Source of the DNA: an uncultured Flavobacteriaceae bacterium
GTDB taxonomy: Bacteria; Bacteroidota; Bacteroidia; Flavobacteriales; Flavobacteriaceae
Reading direction: 5' to 3'
Length of the DNA stretch: 64,000 nucleotides
Assembly (NCBI GenBank): GCA_943842245.1
Contig: CALTAJ010000001.1
Coordinates: forward strand, 558,001-622,000
In this document: positions 1,788 to 42,766 of the stretch, in pieces
How the letters are laid out: each line of letters starts with the position of its first letter
How positions within the stretch are numbered: position 1 is the stretch's first letter
Notes under the pieces: generated by a model
The model's database searches: none
The model's input: the letters and a program-made list of their open reading frames with translations, nothing else
What the model was told of the DNA's origin: nothing
Translations under genes and position numbers: made by a program

Positions 1788-2915
1788 ATGGAACACCAAA
1801 AACATACCAAATTAGTAAAATCAAATAGAGGTTTTTTTTCTAAAAATGAAATAAGCCTTTTAGGTACTAATTGTAATGAAATTAAAAAAGCTGCGAAAGG
1901 CTTGGCAGATTTTCTTAAAAACTCTTGGGATATAATTTATGTAGATGCAGATCACTTAAATTCAAATGAGAAAATAAACTCTATTTCTTCTTTTAGTGGT
2001 GTATTTACAGATAAAATTAATTTTTCTGAATTTCATTTATTTAAGTTTAATCATAAAACTTTAAAAAATTCGTTTTATGATACTGCTAGCCTCACTATAG
2101 TAAATGGGAATCACAACAAGGCTAAAAAACAAATTGTAATCATTGATTCGTCCAAAGAATCATCTTTAAAAAAAAGAAGAGAAGATTTGACAGATGTTAT
2201 TGCTTTGATTGCTGAAAATTCAAATTACCCCAAATATATTAGAGAGTGCATTCCGAATTGTGATGAGATACCATTTTTTTCTTTTAATAATTACAAGGGA
2301 CTATCATTATTAATAGATAATCTTTTAAAAAACAATATTCCACCCATTCAAGGTTTAATTTTAGCTGGCGGTTATAGTTCAAGAATGGGCAATGATAAAT
2401 TTAAATTAGTTTATCATGGAAAGCCACAACACGAACATTTATTGGAATTATTAAACCCCTTTTGTGAATATGTAACTGTTTCTTGCAGAGAAGAACAAAG
2501 TGAAAATATTCAAAACCCTATTATTGATAAGTTTATTGGCTTAGGGCCAATGGGTGGTATTTTAACTGCATTTCAAAGTAACCCAAATGTAGCCTGGTTA
2601 ACTGTAGCCTGCGACATTCCTTTACTAGATTTTAATTCTATTGAGATTTTAGTAAATAGCCGTAATCCAAATAAATTAGCAACATGTTATTACAATTCAA
2701 AAACAAACTTTCCTGAACCTTTAATTACAATATGGGAGCCAAAAGCTTATCCTATATTACTCGAGTACATGTCTCAAGGATATTCTTGTCCAAGAAAGGT
2801 TTTAATTAATAATGATATTGAGATGGTTCATTTAGAAAATGAATCTATTTTAATGAATGTGAATAAAAAAGAAGAAATGAAGTCTGCAGTTGATTATATT
2901 TCAAAAAATCAATGA
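1788..2915 (+). CDS. MobA-like molybdenum cofactor nucleotidyltransferase with extra N-terminal domain
   Basis: The C-terminal half (about residues 186-375) is a MobA-type nucleotidyltransferase: it has the nucleotide-binding signature LAGGYSSRMGNDKF (192-205), GLGPMGGIL and VACDIPLLD. MobA enzymes attach GMP to molybdopterin. The first 185 residues are extra. They contain LLGTNCNEIKKAAKGLADFL followed by IIYVDADHL, which looks like a P-loop NTPase fold without the GKT lysine-threonine, so a degenerate MobB-like domain is possible (inference). The gene is transcribed toward the cox genes with a 106-base gap, and it is the second of two nucleotidyltransferases in this island. It may serve another enzyme than the CO dehydrogenase, which uses the cytosine form of the cofactor. 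Confidence 0.75.
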   Translation: MEHQKHTKLVKSNRGFFSKNEISLLGTNCNEIKKAAKGLADFLKNSWDIIYVDADHLNSNEKINSISSFSGVFTDKINFSEFHLFKFNHKTLKNSFYDTASLTIVNGNHNKAKKQIVIIDSSKESSLKKRREDLTDVIALIAENSNYPKYIRECIPNCDEIPFFSFNNYKGLSLLIDNLLKNNIPPIQGLILAGGYSSRMGNDKFKLVYHGKPQHEHLLELLNPFCEYVTVSCREEQSENIQNPIIDKFIGLGPMGGILTAFQSNPNVAWLTVACDIPLLDFNSIEILVNSRNPNKLATCYYNSKTNFPEPLITIWEPKAYPILLEYMSQGYSCPRKVLINNDIEMVHLENESILMNVNKKEEMKSAVDYISKNQ

Positions 2916-3021: not shown

Positions 3022-3888
3022 ATGATACCATCTAATTTCAATTACCATAAAGCTAACACCTTGAAAGATGCTTTTGCTTTATCTTCTTCATTGGGTGAGG
3101 AAGCCAAATATATGTCAGGAGGTCATAGCCTTTTACCAATGATGAAACTTCGTTTTGCAACTCCAACTGATATAATAGACATAAGTAAAATTGAAGGTTT
3201 ATCTTACATTAGGGAAGAGGATAATCTCCTTAAGATTGGGGCATTAACAACTCAAGTTGAAATGGAAAGATCTTCTTTAATTGAAGAGAAATACCCAATA
3301 TTCAAAGATGCATCTAAACTTATTGCTGATCCTGCTGTAAGGAACTGTGGAACAATTGGGGGAAATATTGCTCATGGAGATGCTGCAAATGACCAACCTT
3401 CATTAATGATTGCTTTAAGAGCAAACTTTGTTGTTGAAGGTCCAAACGGTAAACGAAATATTTCTGTTGATGATTTTTTTCATGGATTTTATATGACTTC
3501 TCTAGATCCCTCTGAAATACTAGTTGAAATTCAAATCCCTCAATATGTTGATGGATCAGGAAGTGCCTATCACAAGGTAGAGAGGAAAGTTGGAGACTAC
3601 GCGACATCAGGTGCCGCAGTTTATTTAGAACTTGACGGTTCTGAATATTGTAAACAAATTGGCATTGGACTTACAAACGTAAGTGCAACTCCAATGCGAT
3701 TATCTCGAGCGGAGGATTTACTTAAAGGTAAAGTTATTTCTAATGAGCTAATTCAAGAAGCAGGAAAAATTGCTAGCGAAGATTGCGAACCATCTTCTGA
3801 TTTGAGAGGTTCGGAGGCTTATAAAAGATCTGTTACAAATACATTGACAAAAGATATGATAAACGCCGCCCTTGGGAGAGCTAAATAA
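3022..3888 (+). CDS. coxM: Aerobic CO dehydrogenase medium subunit (FAD-binding)
   Basis: Flavoprotein subunit that takes electrons from the 2Fe-2S subunit and passes them to the respiratory chain. The 288 residues match the usual length. The two FAD pyrophosphate-binding loops of the CoxM/CutM family are present: SGGHS at 32-36 and TIGGN at 111-115, the latter followed by the expected acidic and small residues. A C-terminal CO_deh_flav_C region follows. It is the first gene of the operon, 10 bases ahead of coxS. The order M-S-L is the order of form I CO dehydrogenases, whereas form II clusters usually run S-L-M. Confidence 0.93.
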   Translation: MIPSNFNYHKANTLKDAFALSSSLGEEAKYMSGGHSLLPMMKLRFATPTDIIDISKIEGLSYIREEDNLLKIGALTTQVEMERSSLIEEKYPIFKDASKLIADPAVRNCGTIGGNIAHGDAANDQPSLMIALRANFVVEGPNGKRNISVDDFFHGFYMTSLDPSEILVEIQIPQYVDGSGSAYHKVERKVGDYATSGAAVYLELDGSEYCKQIGIGLTNVSATPMRLSRAEDLLKGKVISNELIQEAGKIASEDCEPSSDLRGSEAYKRSVTNTLTKDMINAALGRAK

Positions 3889-3898
3889 ATAGACGAAA

Positions 3899-4378
3899 AT
3901 GAAACATGAAATTACATTAAAAATAAACGGTGAAAGTATAACTAAAGAGGTTGATTCAAGACTTTTATTAGTTCATTTTATTCGTGAAAATTTAAGTTTA
4001 ACAGGAACACACATAGGATGTGACACTTCTAATTGTGGAGCATGCACTATATTACTTGATGGAAAATCTATTAAGGCATGTACTTATCTTGCTGTTCGTG
4101 CAGATGGATCAGAAATCACAACAATAGAAGGAATAGCAGAAGACGGGACTAATCATCCTATACAAAAAGCTTTCCATGATCAGCATGCTTTGCATTGTGG
4201 TTTTTGTACTCCAGGAATTATAATGAGATCTATTGATTTTCTAGAGCACAATCCTAATCCAACAGAAGAAGAAATACGTTGGGGGATTTCTGGGAATTTA
4301 TGTCGCTGTACTGGTTATAACAATATTGTTAAAGCTATTAAACAAGCAGCGAATGAAATGAAAAATGAAACTGTCTAA
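3899..4378 (+). CDS. coxS: Aerobic CO dehydrogenase small subunit (2x 2Fe-2S)
   Basis: Iron-sulfur subunit linking the molybdenum site to FAD. The N-terminal plant-type ferredoxin domain has C41, C46, C49 and C61 ([10 protein letters not shown] and later KACTY). The C-terminal helical domain has C100-x2-C103 (HCGFC) and C135-x-C137 (LCRCTGY). All eight cluster ligands are intact and the 159-residue length is typical. It lies between coxM and coxL with gaps of 10 and 17 bases, so the three subunits are almost certainly co-transcribed. Confidence 0.94.
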
Positions 4379-4395
4379 TCTTTAAAAACTAAAAT

Positions 4396-6753
4396 ATGTT
4401 TAAATGTAAAACATCACCTGAAGTAGGTGGGATGGGCCACTCGGTCAAAAGAAAAGAGGATGCAAGGTTTTTACATGGCAAAGGTAACTATGTAGATGAT
4501 GTAAAACTTCCTGGAATGTTATCTATGGTAATGGTAAGAAGTCCTTATGCATATGCCAAAATAAAAAACATTAATAAAGAAAAAGCACTTAAGATTGATG
4601 GGGTTTTAGCAGTTATAACTGGTAATGACCTGGCCCAATATAACCTACATTGGATGCCAACCTTATTATCTGACACTCAAATGGTTTTACCAACGGACAC
4701 AGTTATGCACCAGTCACAGGAAGTTTGTGCAGTAATTGCAACAGATAGATATACTGCCGTTGATGGAGCAGAAGCTGTAGAGATTGATTATGAGCCTATG
4801 CAGGCCGTTGTTGACCCATTCAAAGCTTTAGATGAAGATGCTCCACTTTTAAGACCTGATAAAGAAGGTCAAAAGGACAATCAAATTTATCATTGGGAAC
4901 AGGGAGATCGAGACAAAACAGATCAAGTTATTTCCAATGCAGATATTGTTGTTAAAGAAAGAATTTATCTACCTAGAATTCATGTGGCGTCAATCGAAAC
5001 TTGTGGTTGTGTAGCTTCTTATGATAAAGACACTAAAAAACTAACTGTTTATTTGACCACTCAAGCACCTCATGCAATCAGAACAGTATTGGCATTAGTT
5101 GCCGGCCATGTTGGACTATCAGAGGAGAAGATTAGGGTTATTGCACCAGATATAGGAGGAGGATTTGGTGGAAAAGTTCCGGTTCATCCAAGCTATGTTG
5201 TCGCAATTGCTGCATCTTTTCTTATTGGTAAACCAGTTAAATGGATTGAAGATAGATCAGAAAATCTAGTTAATGGTTTTGCACGAGATTATCATATGGA
5301 CTGTGAGCTTGCAGCCAATAAGGATGGAAAAATTCAAGCTTTTAAAGTAAAAACATTAGCAGACCATGGATATACTGATGCATCTGCTAACCCATCAAAG
5401 TATCCAACCGGTATGTTTTCTATATGTACTGGATCTTATGATTATGAGCATGCTTTTGCTGAATTAGACGCGGTTTATACTAATAAAGTTCCTGGTGGGG
5501 TAGCATACAGGTGCTCATTTAGGGTGACTGAAGCGGCTCATGCAATTGAAAGAATGGTTGATAAACTAGCTCTTAAAATAGGTAAGGATCCTGCTCAACT
5601 TAGAATGGAAAATTTTATCAAAAAAGATCAGTTCCCATATTCCTCTCCTTTAGGTTGGAATTATGATAGCGGTGATTATCATGCAACCTTAAAGAAAGCT
5701 ATGGAAATGGTTGGATATGATGATTACAAATTAGAACAAGCAAAAAAACGTAAAGAAGGAAAATTGATGGGTATAGGAATATGTACTTTTACAGAAGTAG
5801 TAGGTGCTGGTCCATCAAAAGATTTCGATATTCTTGGTATTGCTATGTTTGATAGTGCCGATATAACAGTTCATCCTACGGGAAAGGCAATGGCTCGTTT
5901 TGGAACAAAATCTCAAGGTCAAGGTCACGAAACCACTTACGCTCAAATATTGGCTGAAGAATTAGGTATTTCGTATAATGACATTGAAATTGAAGAAGGG
6001 GATACGGATACTGCTCCATATGGACTAGGAACCTATGCAAGTAGGAGTACACCAACTGCTGGTGCAGCAGCTGCTATTGCAGCTCGTAAGCTTAGAGATA
6101 AGGGGAAGAAAATTGCAGCTCATCTACTCGAAGTAAGTGAGGAAGATATCGAATGGGAAGTTGGAAAATACTTTGTGAAAGGTGCACCTGAAAAGTCTAA
6201 AACAATTCAGGATGTTGCATTTGCCGCATACACTAATATCCCTCCTGGAATGGAACCAGGATTTGAGGCAACTCATTATTATGATCCACCTAATTTAACA
6301 TTTCCCAACGGAGCTTACATCTGTGTTGTCGAGGTAGAAGAAGCTACTGGAGCTATTGATGTAAAACGTTTTGTAGCCATTGATGATTGTGGAAATATAA
6401 TTAACCCCATGATTGTCGAGGGTCAGGTTCATGGTGGATTAACACAAGGAATTGCTCCTGCAATGTATGAGGGAATCGAATATGATGATGAAGGAAACGT
6501 TTTAAACGGGACTTTAATGGATTATTTAGTACCTACCTCAGTTGAATCACCGCATTGGGAAACTGGTCATACGATCACTCCCTCTCCTCATCACCCCCTT
6601 GGGGCAAAAGGAGTTGCGGAATCACCAACAGTAGGTGCTCCTCCAGCGATAGCAAATGCTATTATTGATGCACTCTCACCTTTAGGAATTGAGCATTTGG
6701 ATATTCCAATTACGCCTGCGAAAGTTTGGGATGCTATTCAAGCACACAAATAA
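4396..6753 (+). CDS. coxL: Aerobic CO dehydrogenase large subunit, form I type
   Basis: Molybdenum- and copper-binding catalytic subunit that oxidises CO with water. The decisive feature is the active-site loop AYRCSFR at 370-376, the signature of form I CoxL; C373 corresponds to the cysteine that binds copper in the Oligotropha enzyme. Form II and other family members carry AYRGAGR-like loops instead. Also visible are the GGGFGGK cofactor loop (254-260), QAPH (Q223) and the C-terminal GVAESPTVGAPP with the expected catalytic glutamate near E742. The 785 residues are close to the roughly 800 usual. coxS lies 17 bases upstream; a very stable hairpin follows the stop codon. Confidence 0.94.
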   Translation: MFKCKTSPEVGGMGHSVKRKEDARFLHGKGNYVDDVKLPGMLSMVMVRSPYAYAKIKNINKEKALKIDGVLAVITGNDLAQYNLHWMPTLLSDTQMVLPTDTVMHQSQEVCAVIATDRYTAVDGAEAVEIDYEPMQAVVDPFKALDEDAPLLRPDKEGQKDNQIYHWEQGDRDKTDQVISNADIVVKERIYLPRIHVASIETCGCVASYDKDTKKLTVYLTTQAPHAIRTVLALVAGHVGLSEEKIRVIAPDIGGGFGGKVPVHPSYVVAIAASFLIGKPVKWIEDRSENLVNGFARDYHMDCELAANKDGKIQAFKVKTLADHGYTDASANPSKYPTGMFSICTGSYDYEHAFAELDAVYTNKVPGGVAYRCSFRVTEAAHAIERMVDKLALKIGKDPAQLRMENFIKKDQFPYSSPLGWNYDSGDYHATLKKAMEMVGYDDYKLEQAKKRKEGKLMGIGICTFTEVVGAGPSKDFDILGIAMFDSADITVHPTGKAMARFGTKSQGQGHETTYAQILAEELGISYNDIEIEEGDTDTAPYGLGTYASRSTPTAGAAAAIAARKLRDKGKKIAAHLLEVSEEDIEWEVGKYFVKGAPEKSKTIQDVAFAAYTNIPPGMEPGFEATHYYDPPNLTFPNGAYICVVEVEEATGAIDVKRFVAIDDCGNIINPMIVEGQVHGGLTQGIAPAMYEGIEYDDEGNVLNGTLMDYLVPTSVESPHWETGHTITPSPHHPLGAKGVAESPTVGAPPAIANAIIDALSPLGIEHLDIPITPAKVWDAIQAHK

Positions 6754-6764
6754 TTATAAATTAT

Positions 6765-6821
6765 AATTATTTAATATTAAAACCTTCTCTATTTTAGAGA
6801 GGGTTTTAATATTAAATAATT
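6765..6821 (+). terminator. Long hairpin between coxL and coxG, terminator or attenuator
   Basis: The arms 6765-6790 and 6796-6821 are complementary over 26 bases, with one G-T wobble and a five-base loop. The inner part (AACCTTCTCT and AGAGAGGGTT) is the stable core and the outer part is AT. It begins 11 bases after the coxL stop. A typical Rho-independent terminator has a much shorter stem, so partial termination or protection of the coxMSL transcript 3' end is likely (inference). It would set structural subunits apart from the maturation genes downstream. Confidence 0.8.
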
Positions 6822-6858
6822 TAAGAAGAGATTTTTTTCAATGTAAAAAATAGATTAA

Positions 6859-7323
6859 ATGAAAACAAATTTAACAAAGTCATTTGAAGTTCCTCAGTCT
6901 TCAAATCTAATCTGGAATCACCTTATTGATCCCACCAAAATAATGGATTGTGTGCCAGGAGTTTCTATTGACGAAAAAGTAGGTGAAAATCATTACAAAG
7001 GGAAAGTGGGAATGAAATTTGGCCCAATGGGCGTAAAGTATGATGCAGATATTTTTTATGATAAAGTAGATACAGAGAATAAAAAAATCATTATTTCAGG
7101 TAATGGTGTTGATTCTAAAGGGAACGGAAATGCTGAAATGAAAATGAACATAATGCTTGCTGAATTGGAATCTGGAAGTGTTAGGCTAGATGCAGTAATG
7201 GATGTTACAGTTAATGGTAAAATTGCTCAATTTGGCTCTAGAGTTATTGATGCAGTATCCAATCAATTATTTAAACAGTTTGTGTCAAATTTTTCAAAAA
7301 AATTAGCTAAAGCAGCTGAGTAA
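6859..7323 (+). CDS. coxG: CoxG, SRPBCC-family CO dehydrogenase partner
   Basis: Member of the CoxG family (SRPBCC/START fold), which binds a hydrophobic ligand and links CO dehydrogenase to the membrane quinone pool. Family landmarks include FEVPQSSNLIWNHLIDP, DCVPGVS, KGKVGMKFGPMGVKY and the C-terminal helix DAVSNQLFKQFVSNFSKKL. The 154 residues end right after that helix. The C-terminal transmembrane tail present in some longer CoxG proteins, such as that of Oligotropha, is absent, so this one is probably soluble. It is the first gene after the long hairpin and 54 bases before coxD. Confidence 0.88.
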   Translation: MKTNLTKSFEVPQSSNLIWNHLIDPTKIMDCVPGVSIDEKVGENHYKGKVGMKFGPMGVKYDADIFYDKVDTENKKIIISGNGVDSKGNGNAEMKMNIMLAELESGSVRLDAVMDVTVNGKIAQFGSRVIDAVSNQLFKQFVSNFSKKLAKAAE

Positions 7324-7377
7324 AACTTAATAAAAAGCTAGCCTTTAAAATAGTATAACCTTAAATATATCGATCTA

Positions 7378-8250
7378 TTGAATAAAGATATTAATACCTT
7401 AATCAAAGATTTTTACAATAACGATTATATACTAAATGAAGAATTAGCAACTTCTGTATTCTTATTGAAAAATTTAGAAAAGCCTTTGCTTTTGGAGGGT
7501 AATCCGGGAGTTGGAAAAACTATGTTGGCTAAAACTTTAGCAAACCATTTAAAAACAAAACTTATAAGATTACAATGTTACGAAGGATTAGATGTCAGTA
7601 CATCAATCTATGAATGGAATTATCAAAAACAATTACTCCACATTAAATTATTTGAATCTGAAAAGGATAAAAAAACTTTAGAGAGTCAGATTTTTAGTAT
7701 GGATTATATTCTTCAAAGACCACTTTTACAATCAATAGGTGCAGACATACCGGTTGTATTACTAATTGATGAAATTGATCGGGCAGATGAAGAATTTGAA
7801 GCATATTTACTAGAGCTACTTTCAGATTTTCAAATCAGTATACCAGAGTTAGGAACAATAAAGGCTAAAACAAAACCGCTTGTAATTTTAACATCAAATA
7901 GAACTAGAGAACTAAGCGATGCTCTAAGAAGAAGATGCTTGTATCATTGGGTAGACTTTCCCTCTAAATCAAAAGAAATTGATATTATAGCCAAGAAACT
8001 TCCAAATATTGATGAATTACTAGCTACCCAGGTAGTAACATTTATTCATAACCTACGTAAATCTAGTTTACATAAACCTCCAGGAATTGCAGAATCCTTG
8101 GATTGGGCAAAAACATTACTATTAATGAATGTTGCTAATATAACTGACGAGATTGTTATTAATACAATTGGCAGCGTACTTAAACATAAAGATGATATAG
8201 ACTTTGTTAGAAATAAAACAGTCCAGGAATTTCTGTTTCCAATAGATTGA
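7378..8250 (+). CDS. coxD: CoxD, MoxR-type AAA+ ATPase
   Basis: AAA+ chaperone of the MoxR class; in Oligotropha CoxD is needed to assemble the Mo-S-Cu centre. Walker A is GNPGVGKT (41-48), Walker B is VVLLIDE (126-132), and sensor 1 and arginine positions follow in LVILTSNRTRELSDALRRRC. The length of 290 is typical. The start is TTG at 7378; no ATG is available before the Walker A region, so the unusual start is needed. It is four bases from coxE, the VWA protein with which MoxR ATPases normally pair. Confidence 0.92.
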   Translation: MNKDINTLIKDFYNNDYILNEELATSVFLLKNLEKPLLLEGNPGVGKTMLAKTLANHLKTKLIRLQCYEGLDVSTSIYEWNYQKQLLHIKLFESEKDKKTLESQIFSMDYILQRPLLQSIGADIPVVLLIDEIDRADEEFEAYLLELLSDFQISIPELGTIKAKTKPLVILTSNRTRELSDALRRRCLYHWVDFPSKSKEIDIIAKKLPNIDELLATQVVTFIHNLRKSSLHKPPGIAESLDWAKTLLLMNVANITDEIVINTIGSVLKHKDDIDFVRNKTVQEFLFPID

Positions 8251-8254
8251 TTTA

Positions 8255-9388
8255 ATGGTTGAAGTAAATAAAACATTTAAAGAGCGTTTAATTGATTTTA
8301 CCATGTATTGCCGAGATCGTCATTTTGTTCTGGGTCCACAAGAAACAAAAGATGCCTTCAAAATCGCAGAAAATGGATATGTACTTGACCGAAAATTATT
8401 TCATTACAGCCTTAAAGCAATCTTTTGTAAACGTAAAGAACATTTTGATCGTTTCGATGAAATGTTTGTTCGGTTCTGGAGCAGATATTATGAAGAAAAA
8501 TTAGATGAGCGAAAAAAAGAAATTAAATTAATAAAAAATGAGTCCAATTCAGCAAGTGTAATTTTTTTAGGATCCGAATTTCATGTTCCAAAAAAAGAAA
8601 AAAAAATAGAAGCAAAACAAACCAAAGGAGCAAACGAAAATATTAGGCTTAGAATGACTGATTTTTCTAAAGTGGATATTAATGATAAAAAACATCTTGA
8701 AGAATTGGCTATAGAGTTGTTCAATCAAATGAGTATGCGTTTTAAGCGAAGACTTGAAAGTTCAAATAAGGGAATCGTTAACATTCGAAGAACTATAAGA
8801 GAAAGCATAGGAAAGGGCGGATTACCCTTAGATCTTAACTTTAAAAAAAAACGTAAAGAAAAAAGAAAAGTAGTTTTTATATTAGATGTTAGCGGTTCAA
8901 TGGATACTTATAGTTATTACCTTTTACGTTATATAATGGTGCTAAAAAAGTACTTTAAAAGTTTAGAATTTTTCACATTTAGCACAATGCTAACACACAT
9001 TACACCTCTTCTAAGACAAAAAAATGATCAAGAAATCTTAAGACAAATAAGCAAAAATATAAGTTCATGGTCGAGTGGTACTAAAATTGGAGAATCCTTA
9101 TCCGAGTTTGTTTCTGTTTATGGGAATAGATATTTAAGTCAAAAGCATATTGTAGTAATTTTGAGTGATGGTCTTGAAACAGGAAGTGTAACGGTACTTA
9201 AAGAAGCAGTTGCAACAATTCGTAGAAAATGTAAAACGCTTGTGTGGTTAAATCCATTAAAAGGAATGAAAAATTACAAACCTATTCAAAAAGGAATAAT
9301 AAATGTAATGCCTCATTTAGACGCTTTTGAATCTGCACATAATTTAGATAGCCTTTTAAAGCTTGAAAAACTATTAATGAATGTTTAA
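8255..9388 (+). CDS. coxE: CoxE, VWA-domain CO dehydrogenase maturation protein
   Basis: VWA-domain protein (COG3552 CoxE type) that acts with the CoxD ATPase to build the metal centre. The MIDAS motif DVSGS is at 211-215, with the later metal residues in WSSGTKIGESL and VVILSDGLETG. The N-terminal 130 residues are charged and helical, with a lysine-rich linker near 110-125. The length of 377 is usual. The coding end overlaps the next gene by eight bases, indicating translational coupling. Confidence 0.91.
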   Translation: MVEVNKTFKERLIDFTMYCRDRHFVLGPQETKDAFKIAENGYVLDRKLFHYSLKAIFCKRKEHFDRFDEMFVRFWSRYYEEKLDERKKEIKLIKNESNSASVIFLGSEFHVPKKEKKIEAKQTKGANENIRLRMTDFSKVDINDKKHLEELAIELFNQMSMRFKRRLESSNKGIVNIRRTIRESIGKGGLPLDLNFKKKRKEKRKVVFILDVSGSMDTYSYYLLRYIMVLKKYFKSLEFFTFSTMLTHITPLLRQKNDQEILRQISKNISSWSSGTKIGESLSEFVSVYGNRYLSQKHIVVILSDGLETGSVTVLKEAVATIRRKCKTLVWLNPLKGMKNYKPIQKGIINVMPHLDAFESAHNLDSLLKLEKLLMNV

Positions 9389-10391
9389 TGAAATAAGACA
9401 TATCATGGAAGAACAATTGAGCAATGGGAAAAACTTTGCTATGGCTCAAATTATTGGCAGAATATCACCAAGTTCTTCAAAAATTGGAGATAAAGCAATT
9501 ATACTAGAATCAGGTCAATTGATTGGATGGATCGGCGGTGGTTGTGTTAGGGGTATTGTTATCAAGGAAGCATTAGATGTTATTCAAACCAAAAAATTTA
9601 TTAAAATTAGGGTTTCACCAGAAGGGGGAACAAAAGAAAAATCAAATTTCAAAGAGTATATTATGTCATGTCAAAGTAAAGGTACTGTTGAGATTATGAT
9701 AGAGTCGGTTATTGCTCAACCTGAAATCGTCATAATAGGAAAATCTAATATTGCAAGAAAACTTGCTAAAATAGCGACAGAATCAGATTTCAAAGTTTCT
9801 GTTTTAGCAAATGATATTGCACCTGAAATGTTTCCATCTGTTAATTTTATAAGTGAAAAGATAGATTTTAAGTCATTCTCAAACCTTAATAATAGCTATA
9901 TAATTGTAACGACTCAAGGGGATGATGATGAGATATCTGTTTTAAAAGCTATGCAAACGACAGCACAATTTATTGGTTTTGTATCAAGTAGAAAGAAAAC
10001 TAATGATATAAAAGATTACCTAAAAAATAATGGTGTGAATAAAAATCGTATAGCTCAGCTTCGAAGTCCAATAGGTTTGGATATTAATGCAAAACTTGCT
10101 AGTGAGGTATCTATAAGTATCTTAGCTGAGATAATACAACATTTTCGTAGTGGAAAACCAATTCAATCTGAAGATTATTCGGTTTCAAAAAAGGATTCAG
10201 AATCTAATACGATCTCTAGTACTTTTCAAGATGAGTTTTTCATTAATCCTGTATGTAATGTTCCTGTTTCTAAAACTAATCCGAAACATATAATTGAATA
10301 TGAAGGAGAAAAAGTTTTTTTCTGTTGTGATGGTTGCAAAAATACTTTTGAGAAAAATCCAACTCAATATATCTCTAATAAAAAACAATAA
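9381..10391 (+). CDS. coxF: CoxF/XdhC-family maturation protein with C-terminal YHS domain
   Basis: Three parts can be seen. Residues 1-70 are an XdhC_CoxI domain with the conserved WIGGGCVRG (C55). Residues about 112-255 are the Rossmann-like XdhC_C domain ending in SPIGLDINAKLASEVSISILAEI. Residues 286-332 are a YHS-type metal-binding domain with C292 (NPVCNVPV), C315, C316 and C319 (FFCCDGC) and the PTQY ending. XdhC proteins handle the molybdenum cofactor; YHS domains commonly bind metals such as copper. I infer the fusion may couple cofactor and copper handling for the Mo-Cu centre. Position after coxE fits coxF. Confidence 0.86.
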   Translation: MFNEIRHIMEEQLSNGKNFAMAQIIGRISPSSSKIGDKAIILESGQLIGWIGGGCVRGIVIKEALDVIQTKKFIKIRVSPEGGTKEKSNFKEYIMSCQSKGTVEIMIESVIAQPEIVIIGKSNIARKLAKIATESDFKVSVLANDIAPEMFPSVNFISEKIDFKSFSNLNNSYIIVTTQGDDDEISVLKAMQTTAQFIGFVSSRKKTNDIKDYLKNNGVNKNRIAQLRSPIGLDINAKLASEVSISILAEIIQHFRSGKPIQSEDYSVSKKDSESNTISSTFQDEFFINPVCNVPVSKTNPKHIIEYEGEKVFFCCDGCKNTFEKNPTQYISNKKQ

Positions 10392-10405
10392 GGAATATAA
10401 ATTCT

Positions 10406-11008
10406 ATGATTAATATTCCTCATTTATTATTAGCAGCTGGAACTTCTAAAAGAATGGGCGAACCTAAACAGCTTTTAAATTGGGGGAATAAAAAACTTAT
10501 TCAATTTCAAATAGAAAGAATTTTATTAACCACGGGAAAACTCTTTATTATTTTAGGTGCACATGCAGATATAATAGAACCTTACATAAAAAAATATAAT
10601 ATAGATATTATTAGATACGACCATTGGGAATATGGAATGGGTAATTCCATAGCTTACGGGGTCCAGCAAATTTTAAAATCGAAAATAAAATTAGATGGAA
10701 TTCTTATTTCCTTAATAGATCAACCTCTTATTACAAGTAGCCACTATTTAAAAATGAGATCACTTTTTCAAAAAGGGAAAGATCAAATTATTGTCTCAAA
10801 GTCCAATACTGGTTGGTGTGGAGTTCCTGTTTTATTTGATGTATTTTTTTTTGATTCATTAAAATCTCTTACTGGAGAGGAAGGAGCAAAAGAAATCTTA
10901 AAAAAAAATCAAGAAAATGCAGTTTTTATAAATGGAGGAAATATTTTGGTAGATATGGACACACCAGAGGTTTATCAAGAATTAGCCAAGAAATATTTTC
11001 AAATTTAA
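10406..11008 (+). CDS. MocA-like molybdenum cofactor cytidylyltransferase
   Basis: Nucleotidyltransferase of the MocA type, which attaches CMP to molybdopterin to make the cytosine dinucleotide form used by CO dehydrogenase and related hydroxylases. The N-terminal motif LAAGTSKRMGEPKQLL (9-24) is of the MocA kind (LAAGxSxRMG...KQLL) and unlike the LAGG...DK of MobA. Also present are LISLIDQPLI and the late GEEGAKEILKK and DMDTPEVYQEL. The length of 200 is typical. It follows coxF by 14 bases and ends the cox operon; the next gene is convergent. Confidence 0.88.
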   Translation: MINIPHLLLAAGTSKRMGEPKQLLNWGNKKLIQFQIERILLTTGKLFIILGAHADIIEPYIKKYNIDIIRYDHWEYGMGNSIAYGVQQILKSKIKLDGILISLIDQPLITSSHYLKMRSLFQKGKDQIIVSKSNTGWCGVPVLFDVFFFDSLKSLTGEEGAKEILKKNQENAVFINGGNILVDMDTPEVYQELAKKYFQI

Positions 11009-11088: not shown

Positions 11089-13338
11089 TTATCCAACTAT
11101 TTGTTTGTCCGTTATAAAAGGTTGATTATAATACCTTCTACCTGAGGCACGATAAAGTGCATTGGCTAGAGCTCCTATTACTGGAGGGAAAGTTGGCTCA
11201 CCCAATCCAGTAGGTGAAATTTCATTTTTAACAAAATCTACTTGGATTTTTTTGGGGGCTTCAGAATGACGAATTAATCTGTACTTGTCAAAATTTTGTT
11301 GCTCTGGGACACCATCTTTAAAACTCATAGAACTATAAAAAGCATGACCAATCCCATCTATAAGCCCTCCTTCTGATAAATTTTTTGCTGCGTCTGGATT
11401 AATCACAATACCACAATCGACGGTACAATAAATTTTATCAATAATGGGATTTCCATTTTCAACTTTTATGTCTAAAACATTAGCTACATAGGAATTATGA
11501 CAAAAATAAGCTGATACACCTCTGTGAATTCCTTCTGACGAATTATCCCAATTAGACTTTTCTCTTACTAACTCAAGAACACCAGCATATCGAGATGCAT
11601 CATAGTCATTATCTTTGCCAACAGGGTTTTCCTTTGCTTTTTGTAATAGATCAAGTCTGAATTGAATTGGATCCTTTTCAGCGATCTCAGCCACCTCATC
11701 AAGAAAAGATTGTTCAGCTCCTGCAATAAAATTAGAACGAGGTGCTCTGAAAGCACCAACAGATATATTTGATTTTAATTCCCAAGACTCTGCCAAATAA
11801 TGATCTATTGCTCCTGCTGGAAATCTATTTGCAGCTATGGGGCTTTCGGGAATTCCTCCAGCTTTTACATGAAAAGCAATTAGATTATTGTTTTTATCTA
11901 AAGCCGCTCTGTAAGTTGCTCTGTAAGTGGGGCGATAACTCCCCTGACTCATATCATCTTCTCTTGTATAAATTAGTTTTATTGGTGACTTCATTGTTTT
12001 GGAAATAACTGCTGCCTCAGTTAAGAAGTGACCATATAATCTTCGTCCAAATCCACCACCCATTCGGGTCATTTGTATGTCAATTTTTTCTAATGGCATT
12101 CCTAGTCGGCTAGAAACACTTTTTTCCATTGCTTCTGGAGTTTGAATTGGCCCAACCAAAGTAGCTTTATCATCTGTTACATCAGCAAAAAAGTTCATAG
12201 GTTCCATAGTATTATGGGCTAAATAGGGACAGGTGTAAGTCCTTTCAACTACTTTAACTGCTTTTTTAAACATGGCTTCTGGGTTTCCATCTTGGCGAAC
12301 TACTTTAGCTTTTTTATTTTCCATTGAGGCCATCAATTTCATATGATCTGAACTACTTTCTAAACCACTAGGAATTGTGGCTTTAAATTCACCAGCCCAA
12401 CCCTGGACTTTTTCAGTTTTTTCAGGTGCTAGCTCCCATTTTACTTCAAGTTCTTTTTTAGCTTGCATTACTTGCCAGGTTGTTTCGCCAACAATTACAG
12501 CAATTTCATTAAATGAATCGGTATCACACCATTGCTTGGTATAATCTTCCAATTGTGTTTTTATCGAAAACACATCTTTTATACCAGGCATACTTTTTAT
12601 TTGACTTGTATCCATCGATTTAAATTGCATTCCGAAGGCAGGTGGATGAATAATCATCGCAATTAACATTTTATCAGCAGAGTAGTCCAATCCATAGAGA
12701 GGCTGTCCAGTAATTATTTTTGCACCATCTACATTCTTTCTAGAAGTTCCAATAATTTTAAAATCAGATATTTCTTTAAGAGATACTTCTTTAGGAACTT
12801 TCATTTCAGAGGCTAGAGATGCCATTGGTCCAAATCCTGATATATTTCCAGTAGCTTTATGAATTAACTGTCCTTTACTAGTGATGATTTCATTTTGATT
12901 AACACTCCAATTTTGAGCTGCAGCTTCAACCAACATTGCCCTAGCAGTAGCACCAGCCATTCTTAAACTGTTCCAGCCTTGACGGATGGATTGACTACCA
13001 CCAGCTATTTGTCTATTGAAAATAGAAGTGTTTAGGGGCGCTTGTTCCACGATCACATCATCCCAATTAGCGTCTAATTCTTCAGCTACAATCATTGGCA
13101 TTGATGTTTTTATATTTTGACCGATTTCAGGATTTGGAGACATTATTGTTATTAGTCCATTTTCACCGATTTTTAAAAATCCATTAATTTTAAACCATTC
13201 TTTGGGCAGTGCTTTAACTTGATTTGGTGTCATGTCACATGATGCTAACCAATTAAAACTAAGCATTATTCCACCTCCAGCTATCGTACTTCTTTTAATA
13301 AAAGATCTTCTACCGATTGATGTCTTCACTTTATTCAT
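11089..13338 (-). CDS. Exported molybdopterin hydroxylase large subunit (isoquinoline 1-oxidoreductase/aldehyde dehydrogenase type)
   Basis: Molybdenum-binding subunit of a xanthine-oxidase-family enzyme, close to IorB and periplasmic aldehyde dehydrogenases. The N-terminus has a twin-arginine signal (R10-R11 in GRRSFIK) followed by a hydrophobic stretch and WLASC, a likely lipobox at C34, so the mature protein could be a Tat-exported lipoprotein. Landmarks include MTRMGGGFGRR, GAFRAPRSN and the C-terminal GLGEPTFPP with the catalytic glutamate at about E714. There is no form I CoxL loop. The 749 residues are normal for IorB. The 2Fe-2S gene lies nine bases upstream; no cytochrome subunit is adjacent. 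The substrate is unknown. Confidence 0.88.
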   Translation of the reverse strand: MNKVKTSIGRRSFIKRSTIAGGGIMLSFNWLASCDMTPNQVKALPKEWFKINGFLKIGENGLITIMSPNPEIGQNIKTSMPMIVAEELDANWDDVIVEQAPLNTSIFNRQIAGGSQSIRQGWNSLRMAGATARAMLVEAAAQNWSVNQNEIITSKGQLIHKATGNISGFGPMASLASEMKVPKEVSLKEISDFKIIGTSRKNVDGAKIITGQPLYGLDYSADKMLIAMIIHPPAFGMQFKSMDTSQIKSMPGIKDVFSIKTQLEDYTKQWCDTDSFNEIAVIVGETTWQVMQAKKELEVKWELAPEKTEKVQGWAGEFKATIPSGLESSSDHMKLMASMENKKAKVVRQDGNPEAMFKKAVKVVERTYTCPYLAHNTMEPMNFFADVTDDKATLVGPIQTPEAMEKSVSSRLGMPLEKIDIQMTRMGGGFGRRLYGHFLTEAAVISKTMKSPIKLIYTREDDMSQGSYRPTYRATYRAALDKNNNLIAFHVKAGGIPESPIAANRFPAGAIDHYLAESWELKSNISVGAFRAPRSNFIAGAEQSFLDEVAEIAEKDPIQFRLDLLQKAKENPVGKDNDYDASRYAGVLELVREKSNWDNSSEGIHRGVSAYFCHNSYVANVLDIKVENGNPIIDKIYCTVDCGIVINPDAAKNLSEGGLIDGIGHAFYSSMSFKDGVPEQQNFDKYRLIRHSEAPKKIQVDFVKNEISPTGLGEPTFPPVIGALANALYRASGRRYYNQPFITDKQIVG

Positions 13339-13347
13339 AAATATTTT

Positions 13348-13803
13348 TTAAGATTTTGAGGCAGTTTTGATTGCTGCTTTTATTCGGGTATAGGTTCCAC
13401 ATCTGCAAATATTTCCATTCATTGCAGAATCAATTTCCTCATCAGAAGGATTTGTATTAGTTTCTAAAAGAGCGGAAGCACTCATAATTTGTCCTGATTG
13501 ACAATACCCACACTGAGGAACATCATGTTCCAACCAGGCTTTTTGGACTGGATGTTCTCCATTCTCAGACAACCCTTCTATAGTTGTCACTTTATTTTTC
13601 CCAATAGAAGATATTGGTAATTGACAAGAGCGAACTGCTGCTCCATTCAAATGAATCGTACACGCACCACATTGAGCAATACCACAGCCATACTTTGTTC
13701 CTACAAGATTTAAATGATCACGAAGCACCCATAGTATAGGTGTATTTGGATCTACATTAACCTCTAAATTTTTCCCATTAACATTTAGTAGAAATTGTTC
13801 CAT
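13348..13803 (-). CDS. 2Fe-2S subunit of IorAB-type molybdenum hydroxylase
   Basis: Small iron-sulfur subunit partnering the downstream large subunit. The first cluster has C40, C45, C48 and C60 ([15 protein letters not shown]); the second has C98 and C101 (QCGYC) and C133 and C135 (ICRCGTY). All eight ligands are present in 151 residues. It has no signal peptide, which is usual because the folded heterodimer is carried across the membrane on the large subunit's Tat signal. It is first in the two-gene operon. Confidence 0.92.
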
Positions 13804-13941: not shown

Positions 13942-14501
13942 CTAATTTTTACTTATATAGTCAAAAATTCTTGATTCTAAGATGGGTAAAGTGAGGGTTC
14001 CTTTTTCGAGAATTTTTTCATGAAATTCACGGATATCGAACTTACTTCCTAATTTTTCTTCAGTTAAATTTCTTAACTCACGTATTTTTAATTCCCCAAT
14101 TTTGTAAGATAGTGCTTGACCGGGCCAGGAGATATATCGATCAATTTCGGTATTTACTTCGTGGATAGAAAGGGCAGTATTTTCTGTCATAAAATCAACT
14201 GCTTTTTGACGAGACCATCCAAACACATGTATTCCTGTATCTACTACAAGTCTACATGCACGCCACATTTCATAGGTTAATTTTCCAAAATGCTCAAAAG
14301 GAGTGGTATATATTCCCATTTCATTTGCTAAAAATTCAGTATAGAGACCCCATCCTTCTCCATATGCTGAGAGATATAGATTTTTTCTAAACTGAGGGAT
14401 GTCCTCTGACAATTCTTGATTCAGCGCACCTTGTAAATGATGTCCAGGTACTGCTTCATGGGCTGTTAAGGAGGGAATTACATATAAAGGTCTACTAGGC
14501 A
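13942..14501 (-). pseudogene. C-terminal fragment of DUF885 family (putative zinc peptidase) protein
   Basis: About 185 residues of the C-terminal part of a DUF885 protein, a large secreted zinc-peptidase-like family usually near 580 residues. The metal motif HEAVPGHHLQ and the later ISWPGQALSYKIGELKI segment are intact. The recognisable family sequence begins at MPSRPLY (near 14501). Upstream of that the frame runs into the antisense of a desaturase gene and has no family similarity, so two thirds of the gene is missing. I read it as a broken gene at a rearrangement or assembly junction. Confidence 0.8.
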
Positions 14502-14818
14502 TGATGTTTTTTCTGTTTTTTTCCAACAGTTGGTGGGAATGGTTGCTATTTCCAATCACTTTTTTAATGGCTCCAATACACGGTGCGATAATTAACTGGT
14601 TTGGTCATGTATACGGTTACGTGAATTTTAAAATGAAAAATACAAGTAAGAATCTCTTCCCTTTTGATTTTTTAATGATGGGTGAGGGCTATCACAACAA
14701 CCACCATAAAAATTTCAACAATGCCAATTTTGGTGTAAAGTGGCACGAAATAGACTTTACATTTTTAATTATGAAATTCCTGGACGCTTTAGGTTTTATT
14801 TGCTTAAATAAAAAATAA
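14501..14818 (+). pseudogene. C-terminal fragment of membrane fatty-acid (acyl-CoA) desaturase
   Basis: About 105 residues matching the end of a delta-9-type desaturase: the sequence MAPIHGAIINWFGHVYGY, the NTSKNL linker, the third histidine box GEGYHNNHHK and the tail WHEIDFTFLIMKFLDALG. The N-terminal two thirds, with the first two histidine boxes, are missing. Its 5' end meets the 5' side of the DUF885 fragment at about 14501-14510 with no spacer, so both genes lost their starts at one point. Confidence 0.8.
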
Positions 14819-25467: not shown

Positions 25468-27798
25468 TTAATTATCCTTAGTAAAAGAAAAAGGTCTGGA
25501 TGAACTATTAATTCCAAAATCTTTATTTGGCTTACTATCCATCTCAAAATTTAAGCTACCTCCTTTTTGGATATCATTATAGTCAATCCATGTTTTATTA
25601 TAAATAGTTCCATTTAATTTCAATGATTTTATATAGTGATTGTCATACTTATTATCTTTTGCATTGATTGTGAATGTATTTCCATTTTGTAAATTCATTG
25701 TTACCTTTTCAAAGAGAGGACTTCCAAAAACATATTGTGGTACGCCTGGGGTGACCGGATAAAAGCCTAAAGCACTAAAAACATACCAAGCAGAGGTTTG
25801 ACCGTTATCTTCATCACCACAATAACCATCTGGGGTGGCAGAATACAACTTTTTCATCACGTCTCTAACTTTATTTTGGGCCTTCCATGGTTGTTTAGCA
25901 TAATTGTATAGATAAATCATATGTTGCACTGGTTGATTACCGTGTGCATAATTTCCCATATTTACAATCTGCATTTCTCTAATTTCATGAATGGTAAATC
26001 CATAATATGAGTCATCAAATTTTGGAGGCATTGTAAAAACTGTATCTAACATTTTTGTGAATTCTGAGTCTCCACCCATTAGGCCTATAAGACCTTGAAT
26101 ATCATGAAAAACCGACCAGGTATAATGTATACTATTCCCCTCTGTAAAAGCATCACCCCATTTTAATGGATTGAAAGGCGATTGGAAAGCACCATCTTCA
26201 TTTTTCCCACGCATCCATTTAGTTTCTGGGTCAAATAAGTTTTTATAATTTTTAGATTGCTTATAGAATCTTTTTGATATTTCTGGTTTATTCATCTTTT
26301 TAGCCATCTCTGCAATTGTAAAATCTGCATAAGCATACTCTAATGTGCGGGCAGCATTCTCATTGATTCCAACATCATAAGGCACATAGCCTAGTTTATT
26401 GTAATAATCAACTCCCTCTCTTCCAACAGATTGTTGTGGGCGTCCTTCGTTTATATTCGCATTTTTTAAAACAGCTTCTAACAAAACACCTTCATCCTTT
26501 TCATTCATGTTCCCTTTTAAATATGCATCTGCAATTATAGACGCAGAATTTGAACCAATCATACTTTGTCGATGCCCTGGACTTGCCCATTCTGGCAACC
26601 AGCCTGATTCTTTATAGGTGTTTGCCAAGCCCTCCATGATTTGTTTATTAAGCTCTGGATACATTAGATTGAAAAATGGAAATACTGCTCTAAACGTATC
26701 CCAAAAACCGTTATCTGTAAACATATATCCTGGTAGAACTTTTCCATTGTATGGGCTATAATGTACTATTTCTTCGTCTTTGTTAATTTCATAAAATTTT
26801 CTTGGAAACAGTAAAAGTCTATAGAGACAAGAATAAAATGTGCGAATATTGTCAACGTTATCATCTTCAACTAATAATTTTTGAAATTCATTTTCCCAAG
26901 AGGCTTTAGCTAGTGACTTAATATCTTTAAAAGCTTTTTGACCTATTTCTTGACTAAGATTTAGTTCCGCTTGCTCTAAGCTGATAAATGATGAGGCTAC
27001 TTTTACATTAACTTGTTCTCCTTGTTCAGTCATAAAACCAATTATAGCTCCTACATGATCTCCTTGACTTTCTGTGGAGTTTTCATTTAATTTCCAATTG
27101 TCAGACCAAGTATGTTTCCACTTAAAATCTTTATCAAAAACAGCAACAAAGTAATTATGGAAATTTTCTGGTACACCACCATTGTTATTTCTACAATAGC
27201 CAATAATTTTTCTTTCTTCTGGTATTATTTTTACCATACTGCCCTTCTCAAAAGCATCAAGTATAATATAAGAAGAATCGTTTTCAGGAAAAGTGAATCT
27301 AAACATGGCTGCTCTTTCTGAAGGAGTCACCTCCGCAACAATGTCATAATCTGCTAAATACGTTTTATAATAGTGTGGTTTAGATTCTTCTGCTTTGTGA
27401 GAAAACCAAGAAGCTCTTTCATCTTCATGGTATTTGAGTTCTCCTGTAACTGCCATAAGAGAAAAAGAAGCATAATCATTAATCCATGGACTTGGTTGAT
27501 GAGTTTGTTTGATTCCTCTGATTGTTTCATCATCATATTTATAAGCCCAACCATCTCCCATTTTAGCGGTTTGTGGGGTCCAGAAATTCATTCCCCATGG
27601 GGTGGCAATAGCTGGATATGTGTTCCCATTTGAAAGACTAAATTTAGAGTCTGTTCCCATTAAAGGATTAACTAAATCAACTAAACTCGAATATTGAGAA
27701 TTATTTAATAAGCTATTTTTATTATTTACTTTGTCGGAACAGGAAAGCACTGAAAATAGCACAACGGCCATTAATATTTTTTGTATAGTTTTTATCAT
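25468..27798 (-). CDS. GH92 family alpha-mannosidase, lipoprotein
   Basis: Glycoside hydrolase family 92 enzymes are calcium-dependent exo-alpha-mannosidases. The start of the catalytic region, VDLVNPLMGTDSKFSLSNGN with YPAIATPWGMNFWTPQT, is diagnostic. Later landmarks are FTDNGFWDTFRAVFP, GWLPEWASPGHR and the DEDNGQTSAWYVFSALGFYPV end. The lipobox (VLSC, C20) predicts a surface or periplasmic lipoprotein. The 776 residues are normal. It sits in an operon-like row with a mannose-6-phosphate isomerase cupin upstream and a sugar symporter downstream. Confidence 0.93.
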   Translation of the reverse strand: MIKTIQKILMAVVLFSVLSCSDKVNNKNSLLNNSQYSSLVDLVNPLMGTDSKFSLSNGNTYPAIATPWGMNFWTPQTAKMGDGWAYKYDDETIRGIKQTHQPSPWINDYASFSLMAVTGELKYHEDERASWFSHKAEESKPHYYKTYLADYDIVAEVTPSERAAMFRFTFPENDSSYIILDAFEKGSMVKIIPEERKIIGYCRNNNGGVPENFHNYFVAVFDKDFKWKHTWSDNWKLNENSTESQGDHVGAIIGFMTEQGEQVNVKVASSFISLEQAELNLSQEIGQKAFKDIKSLAKASWENEFQKLLVEDDNVDNIRTFYSCLYRLLLFPRKFYEINKDEEIVHYSPYNGKVLPGYMFTDNGFWDTFRAVFPFFNLMYPELNKQIMEGLANTYKESGWLPEWASPGHRQSMIGSNSASIIADAYLKGNMNEKDEGVLLEAVLKNANINEGRPQQSVGREGVDYYNKLGYVPYDVGINENAARTLEYAYADFTIAEMAKKMNKPEISKRFYKQSKNYKNLFDPETKWMRGKNEDGAFQSPFNPLKWGDAFTEGNSIHYTWSVFHDIQGLIGLMGGDSEFTKMLDTVFTMPPKFDDSYYGFTIHEIREMQIVNMGNYAHGNQPVQHMIYLYNYAKQPWKAQNKVRDVMKKLYSATPDGYCGDEDNGQTSAWYVFSALGFYPVTPGVPQYVFGSPLFEKVTMNLQNGNTFTINAKDNKYDNHYIKSLKLNGTIYNKTWIDYNDIQKGGSLNFEMDSKPNKDFGINSSSRPFSFTKDN

Positions 27799-41602: not shown

Positions 41603-42766
41603 TTAGTTTGAAAATTTGAACCAGGTTTCTGAGCTAAAGTTCTTATCTGGTGATAAAAATATATTCGGAAAATTTGATTGATTGGGAGAATCAGGATAGT
41701 GTTGGGTTTCAAAACAAAAACCATTTCGTTTATTATAGGTTTTTCCTTCTTTTGATGTTAATGTCCCATCAAGAAAATTACCTGTATAAAATTGAATCCC
41801 AGGTTGATCAGAATAAACTTCTAATAAAATACCAGATAAATTACTTTTAGCTTGTGCAACTTTTCTAACTCCTTTTCCATAATCATTCAATACCCAACAG
41901 TGATCGTATCCGATTCCATAATCTAGTTGTTTATTCACTAAATTGATATCCTGTCCTATTTTTTTATTATTTCTAAAGTCAAAAGGAGTATTTATAACAT
42001 TTCTAATTTCCCCAGTAGGGATTAACCCACTATCTATCGGTAGAAAATTATCAGCATTGAGAATTACTTCGTGATCTAGAATATCACCTGAGCTTTCACC
42101 TGATAAATTAAAGTAAGAATGTTGAGTTAAATTTATAATTGTTTTAGCATCCGTATTTGCATTATATAATATTTTTAATTCATTATTATTGCCCAAAATA
42201 TACTTTACCTCTATATCTAAGTTTCCCGGGTAACCCTCCTCCATGTGTTTGGATAAATAATTTAGTTTTAATCCGATAAAATCATTCCCCTCCAGCTTGT
42301 CAACAGACCATAAAACTTTATCAAAACCCTTAATTCCTCCGTGAAGTGAATGTTCTCCATTATTAATGGCAAGAGAATATTCTTTTCCATCAATTTTAAA
42401 TTTCCCATTTCTAATTCTATTTCCATACCTGCCAATTATTGAGCCAAAATACGGGTGTTCACTTATGTAACCTTCAATGTTATTAAATCCTAAAGCAATA
42501 TCTTTTATATTTCCTTTAGAATCAGGAACTCTAATATTGGTGATAATACCACCGTAATTAATTACTTCTACTGATATTATAGAATTGGATAATTTATATT
42601 TATGTATTCTTTCTCCATTAGGTAGTTTGCCAAAATCACTTTTAGATATTGTCATTATTGGTTTATTTTCATTAAAGTTACACGAGGATATAATAATTAT
42701 AAGTAAAAACAGATAATTATTAAAAGTGGTTTTTATAATATTTTTTGTCATTGTTATTTTATTCAA
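41603..42766 (-). CDS. Aldose 1-epimerase (galactose mutarotase), lipoprotein
   Basis: GalM-type mutarotase interconverting alpha and beta anomers of hexoses. Landmarks are NYGGIITNIRVPD, IIGRYGNRI, GEHSLHGG, the catalytic histidine in LTQHSYFNLSG, and the catalytic glutamate in CFETQHYPDSPNQ. The N-terminus is a signal peptide with a lipobox (IISSC near C29), so this copy is exported, as is usual in Bacteroidota sugar loci. It is next to a GH5-like glycosidase gene on the same strand with a 44-base gap. Confidence 0.9.
   Translation of the reverse strand: MNKITMTKNIIKTTFNNYLFLLIIIISSCNFNENKPIMTISKSDFGKLPNGERIHKYKLSNSIISVEVINYGGIITNIRVPDSKGNIKDIALGFNNIEGYISEHPYFGSIIGRYGNRIRNGKFKIDGKEYSLAINNGEHSLHGGIKGFDKVLWSVDKLEGNDFIGLKLNYLSKHMEEGYPGNLDIEVKYILGNNNELKILYNANTDAKTIINLTQHSYFNLSGESSGDILDHEVILNADNFLPIDSGLIPTGEIRNVINTPFDFRNNKKIGQDINLVNKQLDYGIGYDHCWVLNDYGKGVRKVAQAKSNLSGILLEVYSDQPGIQFYTGNFLDGTLTSKEGKTYNKRNGFCFETQHYPDSPNQSNFPNIFLSPDKNFSSETWFKFSN

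Follow-up and report, generated by a model that had tools for sequence, protein, structure and literature searches.

Carbon monoxide (CO) dehydrogenase formed by CoxM, CoxS and CoxL oxidises CO at a molybdenum–sulfur–copper (Mo–S–Cu) site. On plasmid pHCG3 of Oligotropha (Afipia) carboxidovorans, from the best-studied lineage, its genes stand in the order coxMSL-D-E-F-G and are accompanied by those we take to be coxB, coxC and coxH. In PMC4240915, Oligotropha mutants in coxE and coxF are described as containing a CO dehydrogenase with molybdenum and sulfur and without copper, CoxE and CoxF each being absent in both mutants according to the authors; Oligotropha CoxF is proposed to have the copper motif MCPSHGTM, along with a phytase motif and a contact through RGD, and copper and sulfur delivery to the Mo–Cu site is described as unresolved (section 23). 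The introduction of the same paper reports that XdhC works with NifS4 in xanthine dehydrogenase maturation of Rhodobacter. Here, we compare these systems with a cox operon at 3022–11008 of a 64,000-nt stretch (the window, whose numbering is used throughout) of contig CALTAJ010000001.1 from an uncultured Flavobacteriaceae bacterium. Judging from its genes, we consider it probable that this is a form I module in which a C-terminal tail on CoxF would act as copper carrier and a linked cysteine desulfurase as sulfur donor.

The operon comprises eight open frames, all on the plus strand and all (8/8) with the expected Pfam domains: coxM for the flavin adenine dinucleotide (FAD) subunit (3022–3888; PF00941, PF03450), coxS for the iron-sulfur subunit (3899–4378; PF01799, PF00111), coxL for the molybdenum–copper subunit (4396–6753), coxG (6859–7323; PF06240), coxD for a MoxR-type AAA ATPase (7378–8250; PF00004, PF07728), coxE for a VWA protein (8255–9388; PF05762), coxF (9381–10391; PF02625, PF13478, PF04945), and a gene for a MocA-like cytidylyltransferase (10406–11008; PF12804). 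Each is backed at family level by Pfam and NCBIfam. This bears out an earlier note on the window, which had described coxMSL in form I order and coxG, coxD, coxE and coxF as maturation genes. The same note had read the motif AYRCSFR with its copper cysteine in CoxL, which we find in the translated coxL frame, and had assigned CoxL to form I. Indeed, CoxL scores 1188 bits against TIGR02416 (curated cut-off, 991), and in a 56-row tree (quick search, SH-aLRT support only) the window's sequence and 48 form I rows are separated from seven form II rows with a branch support of 100, CoxL of the window lying within a fully supported Flavobacteriaceae group. The nearest solved structures are CoxL chains (8uem, 1ffu, 1n5w). 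A form II placement or a lost copper cysteine is excluded by the tree and by AYRCSFR in the sequence.

The cluster is thus almost certainly a form I CO dehydrogenase and, by its gene content, a complete Mo–Cu module encoding an enzyme of a known, ordinary kind. That CoxMSL acts on a substrate other than CO would draw on the general breadth of the family and nothing further; set against AYRCSFR, the TIGR02416 score, the coxMSL order, the presence of coxDEF and the position inside form I, this seems very improbable. As a separate observation, one Neomarinimicrobiota contig (L075, position 5172) encodes two kinds of CoxL, of form II type (AYRGAGR) and of form I.

The window shares with Oligotropha the coxMSL order, a form I CoxL, and coxD, coxE, coxF and coxG, but differs in its gene order (MSLGDEF), in the makeup of CoxF and CoxG, and in accessory genes. 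In agreement with the earlier note, which had reported coxB, coxC and coxH as absent, Oligotropha CoxB, CoxC and CoxH have no credible counterpart by tblastn, the sole match (E 0.26) coming from a search of 104 kb of the contig, with the rest of the genome not searched. The closest relatives are form I operons of other Flavobacteriaceae (Maribacter, Robiginitalea, Robertkochia, Eudoraea, Pelagihabitans and metagenome-assembled genomes (MAGs)), whose CoxL proteins are 90–94% identical to that of the window and which share with it the MSLGDEF order, a CoxF with YHS domain, and a neighbourhood of desulfurase, XdhC, MoaA and MoeA. The window differs from these relatives in a MobA-like gene that separates the desulfurase gene from coxM, an arrangement also found in L049, L050, L064 and L090, and in a MocA-like gene of another branch.

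CoxF of the window consists of XdhC_CoxI and XdhC_C domains followed by a C-terminal YHS domain (amino acids 288–332; 10242–10376, plus strand; PF04945, 45.4 bits against a gathering score of 30.3), and falls into the CoxF clade with a support of 0.90 (FastTree). No second YHS match was found in the window's genome (2.08 Mb in four contigs, 89.9% complete). Oligotropha CoxF (280 amino acids), by comparison, has neither a YHS nor an HMA domain, and no YHS match was found on the whole of plasmid pHCG3. An XdhC core with C-terminal YHS domain as in the window recurs in CoxF of Thermomicrobium, Natronorubrum and Paraburkholderia, although these cores are merely 24–30% identical to the window's and the gene orders differ.

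For a wider survey, XdhC-family frames were taken from 154 loci: 60 named loci, seven plasmid records, and 87 stretches surrounding CoxL matches over the TIGR02416 cut-off, each labelled with the phylum of its named centre. Besides the matches in Bacteroidota and Flavobacteriales counted below, such matches occurred in 42 of 201 genomes of Chloroflexota, 13 of 299 of Pseudomonadota, 23 of 150 of Gemmatimonadota and 3 of 149 of Acidobacteriota; Actinomycetota and archaea are represented by one Nonomuraea and one Natronorubrum, respectively, and a single locus (L271) lacked the form I motif by pattern. Length filters (leaving out frames shorter than 240 and XdhC matches shorter than 180 amino acids) and the removal of L283, the same record as L082, left 198 rows, the window's two proteins included; loci lacking a CoxF frame were not scored as tail-less. 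In a FastTree of the XdhC part, the CoxF clade held 134 rows, of which 112 carried a YHS domain, six an HMA domain and 16 neither; L045 and L292, with identical CoxL, lie on the same contig, so that these rows stand for 133 distinct loci, 111 with YHS. The XdhC/CoxI clade from the same loci had a YHS or HMA domain in 0 of 62 rows, and two tail-less Neomarinimicrobiota rows adjoin the CoxF clade. Pfam, applied to 103 of the 134 CoxF rows (the 31 left out being YHS-bearing rows from flavobacterial loci), detected 78 YHS domains where our custom model had called 81, and confirmed HMA in all six rows, among them L072.

The HMA-tailed proteins (L072, L284–L288) belong to a Bacteroidota/Rhodothermota group and form one clade in the CoxF tree. 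As YHS and HMA are unrelated metal-binding domains found at the same place, a metal-related rather than a structural role is indicated. In an alignment of 35 CoxF proteins, Cys292, 315, 316 and 319 of the YHS tail are invariant or nearly so, and they are conserved between distant phyla. The AlphaFold2 model of CoxF (predicted local distance difference test score, 84.9) displays the XdhC part, a low-confidence segment (260–278) and a folded YHS part, as would be expected of a tethered carrier. Searched against solved structures, the YHS part returned only phenol hydroxylase chains at E <0.001 (about 6e-4), which we take to be zinc-binding; in a fold search with the whole model, the XdhC structures 2we7, 2we8 and 3on5 were retrieved and nothing telling for the tail. 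Taken together, these sequence data make it fairly likely that the CoxF tail is a copper carrier.

Several observations weigh against this assignment. The tail-less CoxF of Oligotropha works, so that the best-studied lineage does without a tail, and outside Pseudomonadota tail-less rows are also seen in Gemmatimonadota (L311), Acidobacteriota (L328) and Nonomuraea (L121, a long mechanical frame). In the tree of CoxL, the HMA loci L072, L284 and L288 fail to cluster, the degenerate tail of Deinococcus misses two of the cysteines, and YHS domains bind other metals too, so that zinc may be the ligand. A tail that does not deliver copper, whether it holds zinc in a structural role or senses copper so as to guard the active site or regulate CoxF, would agree with the occurrence of YHS in many proteins, with the identity of its nearest solved relatives and with the lack of need for it in Oligotropha. 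Such a role is nevertheless unlikely, given that the tail is present on the copper-insertion protein only and absent from 62 paralogues, that a zinc site of structural kind would not readily account for its replacement by HMA in six rows, and that the window's genome holds no other YHS.

A further alternative is that the tail is ancestral CoxF architecture kept by descent, with no present function in the majority of lineages and, as the loss in Pseudomonadota would show, dispensable. Consistent with this, 13 of the 16 tail-less rows are Pseudomonadota sequences, Oligotropha and Roseivivax included, that form one clean loss clade (support 0.98). YHS is found in two further sequences of this phylum, one from Paraburkholderia and one from a gammaproteobacterial MAG. 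However, a relic would hardly be expected to keep its cysteines between distant phyla, to be missing from just three other rows or to be swapped for HMA, and we find this alternative improbable.

Returning to the copper carrier, a second candidate site lies in the CoxF core: MxCxSxG, the core of the copper motif proposed for Oligotropha, is present in 105 of 134 CoxF rows and in 0 of 62 XdhC/CoxI rows, the distinction being softened by a counterpart of its cysteine (GCNG) in XdhC of the window at the least. Of the other two elements in the published copper model, the phytase motif occurs in only 1 and RGD in only 7 of the 134 rows. The proposed core copper site is therefore general, and the phytase and RGD steps are not. 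A literature search found no paper joining a YHS domain with CoxF, XdhC or CO dehydrogenase; subscription papers were mostly outside its coverage, and this is no proof of novelty.

The second element of our explanation is a NifS/IscS-type cysteine desulfurase encoded left of coxM on the minus strand (492–1682; PF00266). The protein belongs to the class-V aminotransferases and contains the motifs SSHK and GSACNS, its scores for IscS (409 bits; cut-off 643) and NifS (410 bits; cut-off 531) staying below both equivalog cut-offs. To its left, and reaching out of the window, lies a plus-strand gene (−595 to 508, with the 3′ part 1–508 inside) for a 367-amino-acid protein that falls into the XdhC/CoxI clade and matches Oligotropha CoxI weakly (E 4e-16). 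The earlier note had passed over both genes, as it had the MobA-like gene and the YHS domain on CoxF. Among the 36 flavobacterial loci whose flank is long enough, 35 have a desulfurase just left of coxM on the opposite strand, and a desulfurase is also found near cox in L074, L077, L093 and, weakly, L315. Weighing against a wider role, none was found within the stretches surveyed at 42 Chloroflexota, 12 Pseudomonadota, seven other Bacteroidota and seven plasmid loci; nor was there one near cox in two Flavobacteriales stretches. Being rare at cox loci of other phyla, the desulfurase is not a general cox gene. The pairing of an XdhC-family protein with a desulfurase resembles that of XdhC and NifS4 in Rhodobacter, where the pair serves a copper-free enzyme; in the window, the gene linkage is to cox. 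The sulfur source of CO dehydrogenase is given as not known in section 23 of PMC4240915. Based on its linkage, we lean towards the view that the flavobacterial desulfurase feeds CO dehydrogenase, presumably by sulfurating the Mo site or the molybdenum cofactor (Moco).

A route of enzyme maturation can be proposed from these data, every biochemical step of which, including the identity of the metal, we infer from gene content. The cytosine dinucleotide cofactor would come from the neighbouring Moco operon together with MobA and MocA; Mo sulfur would be provided by the cysteine desulfurase, acting with the XdhC/CoxI protein and CoxD; and copper would be inserted by CoxF together with CoxE. In most of the non-proteobacterial form I systems examined, the window's included, CoxF would hold copper on its tethered C-terminal domain, usually YHS and HMA in the one Bacteroidota/Rhodothermota group, and pass it via MxCxSxG of the core to the sulfurated Mo site. 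More broadly, CoxF may be a two-part chaperone that combines an exchangeable Cu(I) carrier with a core site, proteobacterial CoxF having lost the carrier, while the flavobacterial module would bring its own sulfur donor and Moco operon and travel as an exchangeable molybdenum cassette; we regard this generalisation as evenly balanced between right and wrong. If true, the copper route would have stayed unclear because the well-studied proteobacterial CoxF lost its carrier.

The cluster adjoins a Moco operon of its own. Between desulfurase and coxM, the MobA-like gene (1788–2915, plus strand) encodes a 375-amino-acid nucleotidyltransferase (PF12804; PRK14490 MobA/MobB, 203 bits against a cut-off of 354). 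Left of the window, genes for u259 (TauE), MoeB/MoeZ, MoaC, MoaE, a 149-amino-acid protein, MoeA and MoaA lie on the minus strand, followed by that for XdhC. The conserved 149-amino-acid protein between MoeA and MoaE (L114, 16604–17053, minus strand) has relatives in many flavobacterial cox loci and no Pfam or NCBIfam match. To the right, the cox cluster adjoins a second enzyme of the xanthine-oxidase family, encoded by iorB (11089–13338) and iorA (13348–13803) on the minus strand, which is a conserved neighbour across the genus; the name ior is a presumptive one.

Relatives without cox mostly carry another Moco set beside ior (moeA, u259, moeB/Z, moaE, moaC, moaA, mocA, xdhC), which apart from mocA is 27–45% identical to the window's. 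The MocA-like protein of the window is 49–61% identical to MocA of the ior locus in these relatives, and 29% to the MocA that two cox-bearing relatives encode in the interval from mobA to coxM. Because it is closest to ior-locus MocA, its membership of the cox maturation set, as proposed in the earlier note, is doubtful by descent; the family assignment stands, and goes no further than the family since the protein (123.2 bits) falls below the TIGR03310 equivalog cut-off (186.45). Even so, the protein may act for CO dehydrogenase.

The two Moco sets seem to be exchangeable. Among 38 genomes of the genus, MoaA is of the cox type (68–100%) in six and of the other type (38–42%) in 13, in addition to which G397 has a remnant of this other type with a stop. 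Genome G409 (L177, G409:C62) possesses the cox-type Moco set, desulfurase and MobA, with no cox after MobA; cox and its Moco cassette can therefore be uncoupled. The cox-type set of G409 and the other set of G412 lie between matching flanks, with DUF885-iorA-iorB to the left and a common run of genes to the right. The window's cluster is at a place other than this G409/G412 site, next to a DUF885 gene (13942–14559, minus strand) cut to its C-terminal 205 amino acids (about 570 in most relatives). A short frame nearby (14501–14818, plus strand) reads by eye like the end of a fatty-acid desaturase, and from their sequences the two likely mark a deletion junction beside the cox cluster.

A block of 20,339 bases comprising ior, Moco and cox is 99.68% identical between G397 (C12, 10479–30815; L127–L128) and G428 (C64, 7435–27773; L130–L131), whose rpoB genes are 79.3% identical. 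A recent transfer or a binning error may be the source of this block. Near the G397 copy lie a tyrosine recombinase gene (L127, 7755–9113) and short repeats. If binning or assembly had falsely produced the distribution of the cluster across the genus as a whole, the MAG-like, incomplete nature of most genomes and the near-identity of this block despite divergent rpoB, with the G428 copy on a 27.8-kb contig, would be accounted for. However, the contig that bears the window's copy is 890 kb long and this copy has its own divergent sequence, the G428 junction is within a contig whose other genes are genus-like (one of them 79% to a window gene), and G409 carries the cassette at the resident site, which makes an artefact rather unlikely.

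Within the operon, CoxG, CoxD and CoxE (6859–9388) are 87–93% identical to G397 and 62–77% to G408; CoxM, CoxS, CoxL and CoxF, in contrast, are nearer to G408 than to G397. Recombination inside the cox operon is a possible explanation of this pattern. CoxG helps pass electrons from CO dehydrogenase to quinone. In the window it has 154 amino acids and in most flavobacteria 154–169, and in an alignment of eight CoxG proteins it lacks the longer C-terminal tail of its Oligotropha counterpart. CoxG as electron carrier to quinone has been reported by Kropp et al. 2025, as cited in PMC13240472.

The earlier note had considered the operon unusual for a Flavobacteriia-like genome, a view that we reject because there are published cases of form I coxL from Bacteroidota and flavobacterial loci are many. 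Bacteroidota are among the coxL-bearing phyla (PMC6794299) and part of mixed coxL clades (PMC13240472), Bacteroidota species with coxL include one in genus MS024-2A, with three genomes having and eight lacking it (PMC13203968), and Bacteroidota MAGs encode CO dehydrogenase (PMC10305171). A search with short peptide patterns, which is not a census, found 60 loci with CoxL relatives, 43 of them flavobacterial by title (90–94% identity) and including the five genera named above; of the 37 named flavobacterial loci that could be tested, 35 show the full gene order. Rarity of the operon is thus ruled out by the locus search, the genome counts and three papers (PMC6794299, PMC13203968, PMC13240472). 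True CoxL (at least 91%) is present in 4 of 38 genomes of the same genus, many of them incomplete, and CoxL that passes the TIGR02416 cut-off in 3 of 395 genomes of the order Flavobacteriales and 8 of 395 of the phylum Bacteroidota. Mapped onto an rpoB tree built from the 30 genomes in which this gene was usable, the four cox carriers require four changes and therefore do not form one clade, a number that missing data may inflate. Form I cox among flavobacteria is patchy rather than rare.

Polysaccharide-type genes near the operon, also mentioned in the earlier note, were recovered in a scan of ten window proteins: a GH92 (25468–27798), an aldose epimerase (41603–42766) and a sulfatase (54726–56219). 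CO as supplemental energy for a heterotroph is a reasonable reading, in agreement with PMC6794299 and PMC10305171, and according to PMC6794299 and PMC13203968 aerobic oxidation forms a large sink for CO in ocean and soil. While form I cox in Bacteroidota is already known, the tail on CoxF, the desulfurase linked to cox and the Moco cassette as an exchangeable unit are worth testing. Fused to CoxF, swapped in one lineage and missing from 62 paralogues, the tail would offer a simple candidate copper donor that is open to testing, and the desulfurase a candidate sulfur donor in flavobacteria; both may be required in complete expression sets for the enzyme in other hosts.

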